A DNA stretch of 64,000 nt, taken from NCBI GenBank assembly GCA_025435555.1, contig JAIWWG010000015.1, positions 186,001 to 250,000 on the forward strand. The letters run 5' to 3'. This document shows, one piece after another, positions 19,962 through 52,808 of the stretch. The notes below the pieces were generated by a model. It had not been told where the DNA came from, did no database searches, and saw only the letters and a list, made by a program, of their open reading frames with translations. Positions within the stretch are counted from its first letter, which is position 1. Each line of letters begins with the position of its first letter. The DNA is from Chytriomyces cf. hyalinus JEL632 (lineage: Eukaryota > Chytridiomycota > Chytridiomycetes > Chytridiales > Chytriomycetaceae). The position numbers were made by a program, and so were the translations under genes.

Positions 19962-20035
19962 GCTCGATTGGCTCAGCTGGTAGTAGCGTGGGGCTGTTAA
20001 CCTCAAGGTCAGTGGTTCGATCCCACTATCGAGCG
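19962..20035 (+). tRNA. tRNA-Asn(GTT): tRNA-Asn (GTT)
   Basis: Acceptor stem GCTCGAT pairs with ATCGAGC; anticodon stem TGGGG/CCTCA encloses loop CTGTTAA with anticodon GTT; T-arm AGTGG TTCGATC CCACT; discriminator G. No intron. A run of four T (20038-20041) just downstream can serve as the RNA polymerase III stop. Confidence 0.95.
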
Positions 20036-20783
20036 CATTTTGATCTGTTTCTGTGCCGTTTTCTGCAGCCACAGGTGCTTAAGTGTTGGGTGTTGTTGTT
20101 CATGCACACGAGCTGTTCAGCAAGGCAACCAAACCTCTCGCCTCATGGCCGCATGCAATTATCCGAGACGCAAACCAACCCTTTCCATTCTGCTGGGTGC
20201 AACAAAAACCATTCAGCGGACGAGCGTAAGCCAACTCAATCTCGGGATGGACCCTGCCCTTACGGCATGATAGTCTGTGGCCGTGTTCGCAATCGGACGG
20301 ACAAAACTCCCCAAACTGAAAACTGAATCTGTTCGCAACCCTTCCAAAATACGTGTTCAGCCGCGGGTGAAAAAGGAGAGTACGCAGTGTATGTCGTTGT
20401 TACCATGAAAGATGACTTGCCAGATGTAACAGATCTGCACTTGACTCCGTTCGTGTCTAAACCCGCAAGATTCCTTGACCAGGAAAATAAGTTACCGTAT
20501 ATAACAGATGAAAACCCGCGAGATTTTGTTTTAAAGGTCGCACGTTTTTTTGTCAGTCCGGACAATCAACGTGTTTTATGTGGCCAGTGGCCCCTTCAGC
20601 TGTGGTTGCGCAGATGACGAGCTTGCAGCGGTGGCAGCCAGGACACATCAACAGCAAGAGCGTAGCCTCGTCGAGAGCGATCGTCGTATCAGTTGGTTCA
20701 TGTGAGCGGCCCGTTGAGAATAAAGACCAAATGGTTTTGGAGACTGGGTCAATTTGCGGCTTGAGCGGTCAGACACAAAAGAA
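20036..20783. other. Region without a supported gene (20.0-20.8 kb)
   Basis: Upstream flank of the transglutaminase-like gene. ORFs of 76-112 codons occur on the plus strand but show no family features, and they are not needed as exons for the downstream gene. Confidence 0.45.
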
Positions 20784-36636: not shown

Positions 36637-36708
36637 GGCCTTATGGTCTAGTAGTATGATTCCTGCTTTGGGTGCAGGAGGTCCGGGGTTCAATTCCCCG
36701 TGAGGCCC
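36637..36708 (+). tRNA. tRNA-Pro(TGG): tRNA-Pro (TGG)
   Basis: Acceptor GGCCTTA pairs with TGAGGCC (one G-T); anticodon stem CCTGC/GCAGG encloses TTTGGGT with anticodon TGG; T-arm CCGGGG-TTCAATT-CCCCG; discriminator C. No intron. Seven T at 36711-36717 form the polymerase III terminator. Confidence 0.95.
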
Positions 36709-47983: not shown

Positions 47984-50169
47984 TCAAAACACGCACAACT
48001 GTCTGCCAAGCGCGCTCAGACATTCCCACGTCTCCAAACGCCATAGCTCTCCTTCCTCTTCACCATCTCCAACCCCGCTCCCAAACACCATACTCAAGAC
48101 AAAATGGGGTGACACGCGCAACACAACATATGTACATCCAAGCTTACGATCCCAAAACAACACACCATGCTTGCGAACCCATGGCACACTTAAACGCGTA
48201 ATCTTGGAGCTCTTTGTTTTGGATGATGGCGACTGGCTTTGTACTGTTGTTTTACTCCAAGGCTGCATCAGCACACTTGCGATCATTTCAAACATGTTTC
48301 CTGGTTGTGACTGGTCCAAGTTGGTTGAGCTGAAATGTGCACTGCTTTCACCCATAGACGTTCGGTTATTTGAATGTCTTGAATGCCATCGTCCACGAAT
48401 TGATGGAGATGTCGCATCAAAAGTATCCTCCGCGCGGAACGCATCATCAATGAGTTCATGAATGTCCGTGCCTTCATTTGATGTACTATATGCGAGCAGC
48501 TGGTCCATCAAAAGCGTGTTGGAACTAACACTTTTTCGCTGAGCAGTTTGTGATGCCGACTGGGAAGACTTTAATCCTCCTCCTCCTCCAGCATTTCCAG
48601 TCACCGTTGCATTGGTAGCGGGACGACTGGTGCTCTTACCGCGCGCGTTACAATCTGCACTGGCAGGACGGTTTCGTGATGTGCTCCGACTACGAGCCTC
48701 GCTTGAACCCAAATCTGTTGGGACTGTAATCTTTGGTTGTGCGAGACGTTTCGCACCTGCGAGTATGGCTGATGCAGGAACTTGACCCATTGGGAGAGTA
48801 TCGAGTTGCTCATCCTGCTCATGAAGGAGGGATATAATATTGGGTAAATGCTCTATTGGCGGACTTGTCTAAGTTGATGTGTTTTTTCCAAAGAGTGAAT
48901 ACAATGCAAGTGTCACAATGCATTTTTGCAACTCAACTGCTGGGTAAGAAAATAGTGCGGGAAGCGAAGCAAGTCCCGTTCGCTTCGTATAAGAAACAGT
49001 GGATCCGGAACAATGGAATCCATCAGGGTAATATCGAACACTGTCTGACACTTGATATAGCAACGAAAAATTAATGAGAGAGCCATGATTGACCGCGTAA
49101 TCTGATATTCTGATGGATACAAGTTAGTTTGCCTGGGATGGAGTCAAATTGGCGTGAAGGAATACATTTTTTGAAAGGGCACATGAGCAGAACATGCGAT
49201 CGGCGTGGAGGCAATTATTTGTGAAAACACGAGCTCAAATTTCGACGAAAGTTTATCCAACCGATGTGATATCCAAGTCGTGATATGGATCATTGGGATT
49301 GGAGGGACCGGGTCTACATCGTCAGAATGCTGATCGGCTGAGGCGGCCTGACTGACAATCGCTGCGATCGAAAGCAGCAAAGACTGTGCTCTGACAGGTG
49401 TGTGATGGAATGTTGAGGTCGAAGAAGCTGGTGGAGGCGCGTCAACAGAGCGCTCAATGGGCAAAGGCGTGAGTTCGGTCAAGTGAAGGTTCAAGTTCTG
49501 CTGAAACTGATTCAAGGAAGCTATCCATCGGGACAGAGATTTTCGAGCTGAGAAGAGCGCCAGAGACGCGTCTTTAAAGTCAAACTGGTTGATGTGGATG
49601 TCTGCAGTGAGAGCCAGACGGAGACAACGAGCGTGTGAATGCAAAGAAACGATGAGACAGTTTTGGGTGTCCATCTCGCGGGCGTTTTTTGTGCTGGGCG
49701 TTGTGCTGGTTGTTTTCCTTGCCTCTTCGTTCATGAGTTGGCCCATCTCGCTTTCGACGCGAAGACATTGGGCAATTGCACGTTCAAGACTGGCATGGAA
49801 ACCAGAGTGCGCTGAAATCAGCAGGAGCATGCACAATACGTAGACAGACAGACCCGCGTCTCTTGCGGCAGCAGCAGCCAGCGACTGTTCAGGACCCGAG
49901 TTGAGAAGCTGCTCTGGCCAAACAAATATTGCTCTTACCTGCACCGCGCCAACATTGAAGCTCCCTACTCTTTCATTCACACCAGGTTCGCTGTCAACGG
50001 GCACGTATTCAACGATGCGCAACAGAGCCTCAATTGCCGACACTTCGTCAAGGTCGTTCGCACTCTCCCGCCGACTGCGTCGCTGCATGTCTTCGCTCTT
50101 GTCGCCCTCCTGAGGCACGTTGGACGCAACGCGTGCTGCAATGTGGCTGACTTGGATGTCCAGAACCAT
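47984..50169 (-). CDS. KICS2: KICS2 (C12orf66)-like KICSTOR subunit
   Basis: Minus-strand exons 49166-50169, 48917-49109, 47984-48868; introns 56 and 48 bases, in phase, 693 residues. Matches to human KICS2 as I remember it, in order: ITTWISHRLDKLSSKFELVF with its LKNMLLAKF helix; a SYPAV element followed by a HLPNIISLL element (human YPAV...HWPNVIMIM); and, near the end, WDRKLGCTYVVLRVSPHFVLSMVFG (human ...STYFLTRPEPHFTIVIIFE) followed by a final helix. The splice joins were chosen independently of this and bring these motifs together. A Ser/Gly-rich insert of about 190 residues separates the last two blocks, and the N-terminal part aligns poorly. In animals KICSTOR tethers GATOR1 to lysosomes and dampens TORC1 when nutrients are scarce. 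Confidence 0.72.
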
Positions 50170-50328: not shown

Positions 50329-51387
50329 CTACAGACTCGCAACAAACTGGGCCCCATCCTCATTCAACGCAACATTCATCGACATGCCTGGCTCCTCCGC
50401 GTAGAAATACCCATTCTGCGATAAAGGCACCAGGCCAGGCTTCCCACTTGCAGCACCTTGTTTCGGCTTCACGACATGAATCCCATTCATTTTGAGCGTG
50501 GCCCTCCTGTTCTGAAACCAGAACTGGACCTGCTTGGCCTCCAGATTCAGCTTCTTCGCAAGCGACAGACGCAGCGCAGTCGATGGGAACGGGTTCTTTT
50601 CAAACACGGCCATTAAGCATTTCAGGTCATTGTCCTTGGCCTTGAATCGGTTGTTTTTCTTGATGTTGTTGGGGTCAATAAACTCTTGCAGCCGCTTTTG
50701 CGAAGATTGTGGGCTCGGTGATGTAGTGTAGGAGGGGGGAGTGGTTGGACCGCTTGGAGAGAGGTCTTGTGTTTGTAGCGGAATTTGGTACATGGGCATA
50801 TCGTGCATGGCTTGTTCAGGCGATGTAGATCCAGGACGGGTCATGTCTGGCATGACGGATGTTTGGGATGGGAATGAGTATTCGTTATGCAAAGAGGTAG
50901 CAGTGTCGAGTGACGAAGTAGGCATGTTGTATTCTGCAGCCCGAGCAGGTTGAGCGGCCGATGTGTCTTCTGACGTTTCAGGAAACATGATGGAGTTGTA
51001 CGAAGCCATCATTTCTCGCAAGTTTGCATTGAAACTGTCGGCAAGTTTCGTTGGCGATAGACTGATTGGGGCCATATCGAATGTGAAGCTTTGTGCCAAT
51101 TTTGTGGGTGAAACGGTGGTAGATGCAGTGGTGGTAGACGGTGGGGTAGGCATAAAGTTCAAGGATGAGACTGGCAGTGACATGCGTCGACCGGATGCTG
51201 TCAGGTGGCTCATGGAGGGCATGGAAAAGTTCATGGGCATCCTGGGGGCAGCCATACCAGCGGGACCAGCGGATGAGTTTTCAGTCAACTGTTCAAAGAA
51301 GAGTGAAGTTGGGCTGGTTGCAGCAGGGACTGAGAAACGGCGTTGTTGTGTCGAGTAGGCGTTCGCAGGGAATTGGAGAAGCTGCAT
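50329..51387 (-). CDS. Homeodomain transcription factor A
   Basis: 352 codons from ATG 51387. The homeodomain is at about 242-302, ending KQVQFWFQNRRATLKMNG with the invariant W, F, N and R of recognition helix 3. Upstream is low-complexity Ser/Thr/Pro/Met-rich sequence with a duplicated SPTKLA(Q/D)SF element (residues 93-119), possibly a docking or activation motif. A TATAAAAAG lies at about 51516-51524 on this strand. Tandem paralogue of the next gene. Role unknown; fungal homeobox genes often govern mating type or development. Confidence 0.9.
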   Translation of the reverse strand: MQLLQFPANAYSTQQRRFSVPAATSPTSLFFEQLTENSSAGPAGMAAPRMPMNFSMPSMSHLTASGRRMSLPVSSLNFMPTPPSTTTASTTVSPTKLAQSFTFDMAPISLSPTKLADSFNANLREMMASYNSIMFPETSEDTSAAQPARAAEYNMPTSSLDTATSLHNEYSFPSQTSVMPDMTRPGSTSPEQAMHDMPMYQIPLQTQDLSPSGPTTPPSYTTSPSPQSSQKRLQEFIDPNNIKKNNRFKAKDNDLKCLMAVFEKNPFPSTALRLSLAKKLNLEAKQVQFWFQNRRATLKMNGIHVVKPKQGAASGKPGLVPLSQNGYFYAEEPGMSMNVALNEDGAQFVASL

Positions 51388-51816
51388 CTGAGCGATGATC
51401 AGGTATGAATGGGAGAAGCAGCTGAGTCGTAGTAGTGGTAGTAGTAGTGGCAGTAGTAGCTAGCACTGGCAGAGTAAAGGTATCGAATGAATGGAATTGT
51501 TTTCTTGCAGAGACCCTTTTTATAAGCTGTGACCAAACAAACTCATTTGTTTCATTTCGTGAAACTGAAACGCCAAATTTGGGTTTCCAAAATTTCATTC
51601 GAACTACGGGTTTGACTTCGTGTATGATCAACGTTAAATGCTTAATATTGTCAGCCTGGACAAGCGCCAATAAAATTACGTTCGTGTTACTCATGCTACT
51701 TCCAATGCTACTACCGACGCTACCACTAACCAGCGACATTGATAACGCCATCACCACCGACACGCACGTAAACAAGCATAAATACAAGCCTAGCTAGAAA
51801 CTACTGTCATTGCCAG

Positions 51817-52596
51817 CTACCGCTCGTCCTTCTGCACTTGTGGCCGTAACACATGAACACCCGCAGCCTTCATGCCAGCCCTCCGATTCTGAAACCAAAA
51901 CTGAACTTGCTTCGGCTCACAGCCCAATTTATCAGCAATTGCTTGTCGAAGTAAAAGCGAAGGAAACGCGTTCAGCACAAACACGTCAGCCAGACACGCG
52001 CTCTCGATGTCTGTTGGACGGAACTTGCCGCGTTTTCCAGTCGATTGAAAGATTTGAGTGCGCGCGTTGAACTCGGCAGCGTCAAAGGCCGCGGGGTACT
52101 TTGTCAGCGCACTGGCGCCGGGTTCGTTCAAGTCTGGCGATGAAGCAACGAATGACGCAGCCAATGTCGGTGTGGTGGGCCTAGATGCAGTGACAGAGTC
52201 CGCAGTCTCTGGTTTGACTGGGTATGCTGTGTTGAGTCGTGTTTCAGGTATCGGCGAAAGAAACGGCGTTGATGGAGCAGATTCAATGTATGTGGAAATG
52301 GCGCCACCGAGTTCTGGTGCTGACTGCCGTCGCAGGTTGGAATACGGTGGCTGAGGAACATGGTAGGGCGTGAACGACGGAGAATGGCTGTATCGCCGAT
52401 TGCAGCCATTGTTGGGTCCCGCTTGTGATTGCGGGAGATACGCGTCCGCAGATTGTCGGCAATGAGGGACTGAGATGTGATTCGGTTGTTGATGTTGTTT
52501 CTTGTGCACAGGAGAAGGCCGGATAAAGTCGGTGTCTTGAAGCAGGGCGGCGAGAATAAGGTAGTCCGCGCTGGGTTCCAGACGGGAGTTGGTCAT
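51817..52596 (-). CDS. Homeodomain transcription factor B
   Basis: 259 codons from ATG 52596. This start is preferred over the in-frame ATG at 52638 because a TATAAAG element (52644-52650) lies only 6 bases above that one. The homeodomain is at about 187-246 (KQVQFWFQNRRAGMKAAG), and both paralogues continue G(I/V)HV(V/L)(K/R)P, showing common ancestry beyond the domain. The rest is disordered. Divergent from the acyltransferase gene. Confidence 0.88.
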   Translation of the reverse strand: MTNSRLEPSADYLILAALLQDTDFIRPSPVHKKQHQQPNHISVPHCRQSADAYLPQSQAGPNNGCNRRYSHSPSFTPYHVPQPPYSNLRRQSAPELGGAISTYIESAPSTPFLSPIPETRLNTAYPVKPETADSVTASRPTTPTLAASFVASSPDLNEPGASALTKYPAAFDAAEFNARTQIFQSTGKRGKFRPTDIESACLADVFVLNAFPSLLLRQAIADKLGCEPKQVQFWFQNRRAGMKAAGVHVLRPQVQKDER

Positions 52597-52643
52597 GCTT
52601 GTTGGTCGGGGATGGGTGACGAAGCCTGCGCCGCGCATTTGGT

Positions 52644-52650
52644 CTTTATA
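52644..52650 (-). promoter_or_regulatory. TATA box of homeobox gene B
   Basis: TATAAAG on the minus strand, about 48 bases upstream of the chosen ATG. Confidence 0.55.
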
Positions 52651-52808
52651 AGTCGGTGTCACTTAGTAAAGAAATTTTGACCTATGCCCAGGCGAGCGTG
52701 AAAATGATGAATTGACTCCCAGACTTGGCTGCGGCGAGCTTCCATTCGTTTGTGCGGAGATACACCGAGCACTTTTCGTTAAAGTGACGGGAAGCACGTA
52801 CGGGACGT

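Follow-up and report, generated by a model that had tools for sequence, protein, structure and literature searches.

A probable divergent KICS2 gene in the genome of what is probably a zoosporic fungus

In human cells, the complex to which KICS2 belongs tethers a brake on growth to the lysosome. Positions 47984..50169 of the window, the 64,000-nucleotide stretch of DNA analyzed here, raise the question of whether a fungus encodes a relative of this protein and whether such a relative would serve the same pathway. An earlier note had proposed an intron-split, KICS2-like gene at this locus, belonging to a fungus and pointing to a nutrient-sensing branch linked to GATOR1. From our sequence comparisons, the gene is very likely a divergent KICS2 (KICSTOR subunit 2, C12orf66 family) of a probably zoosporic fungus, and it would act in the SZT2/GATOR1 pathway.

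The proposed intron-split gene was borne out on the minus strand (50169-47984), where the preferred model has three exons and two short introns and encodes 686 residues. All of the following features lie on that strand. Exon 1 (49166..50169, residues 1-334) begins with the first ATG at 50169, and its open frame continues to a stop at 49144-49146; the match to Pfam family PF09404 starts at about 49290, and the N-terminal half is without a recognizable match. Intron 1 (49110..49165, 56 nt) has a GTATTC donor, a CTAAC element and a CATCAG acceptor. Exon 2 (48938..49109), assigned on the basis of homology, encodes the central part of the KICS2 C-terminal domain as far as SYPA, and is followed in the preferred model by a 69-nt intron 2 with uncertain ends (48869..48937, GTTGAG...ACTTAG). 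Exon 3 (47984..48868, including the stop codon) encodes an HLPNII block, a Ser-rich insert, a TYVV..PHF block and the C-terminus. Within this exon, the 210-residue insert (residues 418-627, 48164..48793) contains 37 Ser, 20 Ala and 19 Thr. The C-terminal block (residues 628-686, 47987..48163) includes a stretch, residues 628-657, that matches positions 382-411 of human KICS2.

Searched against Pfam, the spliced protein matched PF09404 (KICSTOR C12orf66-like) in two stretches with 37.8 bits (E 1.2e-9, curated cut-off 22), and no other family was listed at E up to 10. Residues 294-417 make up the best-matching stretch, on positions 247-373 of the 439-position profile. One shuffled and one reversed copy of the protein, used as controls, were both silent against Pfam. 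When the exons were searched separately, exon 1 gave a chance-level match to DUF3630 (E 0.25) and exon 3 again listed PF09404 as its sole family, at 14.4 bits (E 0.015, profile 377-405). Neither exon alone thus reaches the PF09404 cut-off that the spliced protein clears, in agreement with the claim that splicing unites the conserved blocks. Additionally, a 114-residue piece comprising exon 2 and the start of exon 3 scored above the cut-off, at 27.8 bits, and the PF09404 match of this piece fell to zero when exon 2 was removed or replaced by a competing frame.

Comparison with individual proteins likewise supported the KICS2-like assignment. A phmmer search of the PDB at E up to 10 returned four sequences, three of which are KICS2 chains with E values of 4.8e-4 to 9.9e-4: 25gf_D and 9o5a_F (both KICSTOR subunit 2) and 2gnx_A, a KICS2 chain deposited as a hypothetical protein. 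The fourth sequence is unrelated (E 0.51). The local alignment score against human KICS2 was 93, a value reached by 0 of 500 shuffles (mean 38.1, maximum 57). Identity is low, with 24% of the 135 positions in the main match identical.

As judged from these alignments, the homology covers the C-terminal domain of the spliced gene model. This domain is collinear with that of human KICS2/C12orf66, and two blocks common to both proteins keep their order: an HxPN(I/V)I block (HLPNII in the fungal protein, HWPNVI in human KICS2) followed by a TY..PHF block (TYVVLRVSPHF and TYFLTRPEPHF, respectively). These two stood among the late KICS2 blocks listed by the earlier note, but others did not hold in the form described. 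In the phmmer alignment human YPAV is paired with fungal LPAL, six residues before the fungal YPA(V), and the late strand ends in MVFG rather than in FE.

The fungal protein differs from human KICS2 in length (686 versus 445 residues), in its N-terminal half and in its insert. The N-terminal half of human KICS2 has no fungal counterpart that can be aligned by sequence: exon 1 scored 39 against the human protein, a value reached by 110 of 500 shuffles and thus not significant. The best N-terminal piece, fungal residues 187-230 against human 198-240, is collinear and lies at this same chance level. An AlphaFold prediction of exon 1 alone, run without an alignment, had a pLDDT of 38.9, too poor to use. 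The long helix described previously was thus not confirmed. The Ser-rich insert separates the HxPN(I/V)I and TY..PHF blocks and splits the C-terminal domain at a point, before the TY..PHF block, that is occupied by about three residues in human KICS2. Because its frame is open throughout, the insert is probably translated. With its Ser/Thr-rich composition it probably forms a disordered surface loop, and it is possible that this loop is a phosphorylation platform.

To place the gene in a pathway, we searched the genome (37.78 Mb, 242 contigs) for its partners. Residues 1-328 of human SZT2 used as a query matched a single genomic place, C23:39275-39568 (E 0.009). At this locus, blocks 81-112, 124-141, 198-295 and 304-328 of human SZT2 follow one another collinearly along a single strand. 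The best-scoring block, at 36.6 bits, exceeded all of 100 shuffled queries (mean 19.0, maximum 32.7); the three lesser blocks (24.3, 21.9 and 27.3 bits) are singly within the shuffle range and count by their order. The SZT2-like locus occupies about 29.5-40.5 kb of C23 on the minus strand. Further along it, a 988-aa downstream exon had zero PDB matches at E up to 1, a 259-aa piece gave just chance matches to glucose dehydrogenases (E 1.5-1.6, PDB), and 0 of 8 pieces of the locus matched any Pfam family at E up to 1. Because the downstream pieces match nothing relevant, the SZT2 assignment rests on the N-terminal region, and outside this region the protein looks very divergent. Two GATOR1 subunits are also encoded in the same genome: Iml1/DEPDC5 (E 6.8e-43) and NPRL2 (E 4.6e-36), the latter with a match that reads through five stops, presumably introns.

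The remaining partners were sought with low-power searches. ITFG2 was found neither with a six-frame search for its family, PF15907, nor with a provisional human ITFG2 query sequence, and a human KPTN query across the genome found no KPTN. Additionally, a six-frame family search of the genome with PF04636 found no Sestrin. Because an equivalent search with PF09404 overlooked the KICS2 gene, which the genome does contain, the misses of KPTN, ITFG2 and Sestrin are not evidence of absence. The proposed GATOR1-linked branch is thus partly supported, by the SZT2-like locus, Iml1/DEPDC5 and NPRL2 in the genome, with KPTN and ITFG2 not found at this low search power.

By analogy with human cells, the KICS2-like protein is likely a scaffold bound to SZT2 and serves to place GATOR1 at the vacuole. 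It would bind the SZT2-like protein, and the two would together hold GATOR1 at the vacuole or lysosome; when nutrients are short, GATOR1 would inactivate RagA/B-type GTPases and, through them, TORC1, as it does in human cells. A bolder version, which we consider unlikely, has KICSTOR pared down in this lineage to a core of SZT2 and KICS2 that lacks KPTN and ITFG2, with the Ser/Thr-rich insert serving as a regulated contact or phosphorylation surface and the scaffold reading the nutrient state directly.

Among the alternatives to a KICSTOR role, the one that survives best is that this PF09404-family protein shares the domain ancestry of KICS2 and works outside the KICSTOR pathway, having taken another partner and another role in this lineage. 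The strong divergence, the 210-residue insert and the unrecognizable N-terminal half would suit such a change, as would the failure to find KPTN and ITFG2 in the genome searches. However, this genome has kept SZT2-like and GATOR1 genes, and the type of search with which ITFG2 was not found fails to find KICS2 as well, so that we regard a departure from the pathway as improbable and retain a KICS2 acting with SZT2 and GATOR1. The divergent KICS2 together with the SZT2-like and GATOR1 genes agrees with an origin of KICSTOR before the animal-fungus split, and zoosporic fungi could be used to ask what a minimal KICSTOR does.

The suggestion that this gene extends KICSTOR beyond animals has been overtaken in print. 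As late as 2024 KICSTOR was still termed a vertebrate-specific GATOR1 partner (PMC10957897), and Barua et al. 2025 report KICSTOR from non-Dikarya fungi (PMC11836306). Within the literature searched, just this latter paper brings KICSTOR and Chytridiomycota together. It gives one or more KICSTOR components as absent in Chytridiomycota, Blastocladiomycota, Zoopagomycota and Kickxellomycota, and SZT2 as found in selected Chytridiomycota (PMC11836306). Our gene is thus a useful and unsurprising addition to a presence of KICSTOR in early fungi that is already published (PMC11836306). The non-Dikarya KICS2 described there is of the same family and from the same broad fungal group as ours, and that work likewise reports KICSTOR and GATOR1 components.

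How the present copy relates to the reported losses depends on the search. The published screen covered 183 proteomes by BLASTp at E of at most 1e-5 with mammalian and yeast queries, and losses were confirmed by tBLASTn with the closest relative's proteins (PMC11836306). Human KICS2 against our fungal protein gives 35.0 bits and, if the proteome is taken to hold 5 million residues, an E value of 0.035. The screen required 1e-5, and a gene like this one would therefore fail its first step when searched for with the human protein, although it might still be recovered by tBLASTn. Because the KICS2 described here falls below that first threshold, the patchy losses of KICSTOR reported in early fungi may in part be genes missed by pairwise search.

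The organism itself was assessed from two gene sets. The chitin synthase N-terminal family PF08407, which we take to be typical of fungi, has 14 matches on seven contigs, in line with the fungal origin proposed previously. An IFT57 gene, presumably a mark of ciliated organisms, is also present (E 5.4e-36); the same search also gave matches below the cut-off in 3 of the 14 control genomes, all of them archaea. Zoosporic fungi carry both chitin synthase and ciliary gene sets. Because PF08407 matches and an IFT57 gene occur in one genome, the organism is probably a zoosporic true fungus that makes swimming cells. The presence of IFT57 could also be read as the sign of some other ciliated opisthokont, or of a mixed assembly, rather than of a fungus. 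Such an origin is highly improbable given the 14 PF08407 matches spread over seven contigs and the occurrence of both gene sets in zoosporic fungi, and we keep to a zoosporic fungus as the source of the KICS2-like gene.

The splice model was chosen by enumeration. Candidate models that connect exon 1 with exon 3 through at most two GT-AG introns, each 35-300 nt long, were generated and ranked by their score against part of human KICS2. Of these, 396 were open, and intron 1 (49165-49110) was common to the six best-scoring. Intron 2 was more variable: a 69-nt variant with both ends shifted (48932-48864) scored best (99), the preferred model came second (93), and a 48-nt variant that uses the same acceptor as the preferred model (48916-48869) scored 86. 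The corresponding PF09404 segment scores were 33.7, 32.3 and 23.4 bits. The ends of intron 2, its donor included, are thus uncertain. The 693 residues given by the earlier note would fit the 48-nt intron, the variant with the lowest PF09404 segment score of the three.

Codon usage gave a mixed picture across the gene when scored with a table trained on 4173 codons, taken from six other open frames of the window and from one at the SZT2-like locus. Exon 1 scored +0.10 bits per codon in the gene frame versus -0.02 and -0.03 in the other frames. The 210-residue insert was coding-like, also at +0.10, and the tail was weakly positive (+0.05). For two intergenic stretches the values ranged from -0.14 to +0.04. 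Exon 2 scored against the KICS2 frame, at -0.08 versus +0.02 in the next frame, and the opening 69 nt of exon 3, also at -0.08, were not in favor either. Because codon usage does not support exon 2, its frame was assigned by homology.

At 48941-49102 of the window, on the minus strand, exon 2 shares its DNA with another open frame, ITRSIMALSLIFRCY..., whose codon usage is slightly the better of the two (+0.04 versus -0.07 for the KICS2 frame) and which is without a family match. The competing frame (ITRSIMALSL...), tried in place of exon 2, was rejected, being without a PF09404 match. A hand-made join of the competing frame to SYPATSPP... gave PF09404 at 14.3 bits, from the end part only, and a third variant, lacking exon 3, had no Pfam match.

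That the KICS2 match is an artefact of splice-site choice, with exons drawn from different or non-coding sequence, is hardly credible: the human protein was in view when the splice sites were picked, and for exon 2 the codon usage is weak and another open frame exists, but an E value of 1.2e-9 leaves ample room for 396 enumerated models, exon 3 alone has PF09404 as its sole family, exon 2 with the start of exon 3 passes the cut-off while the competing frame scores nothing, and intron 1 carries its own GTATTC donor and CTAAC element. We therefore retain the three-exon KICS2 gene.

Several other features lie in the window. Directly upstream of the KICS2-like gene sit two tandem homeodomain frames (PF00046) on the minus strand, at 50332-51459 and 51820-52662, with 54.0 and 41.0 bits, respectively. 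Two tRNA genes are found on the plus strand, tRNA-Asn (gtt) at 19962-20036 and tRNA-Pro (tgg) at 36637-36708.
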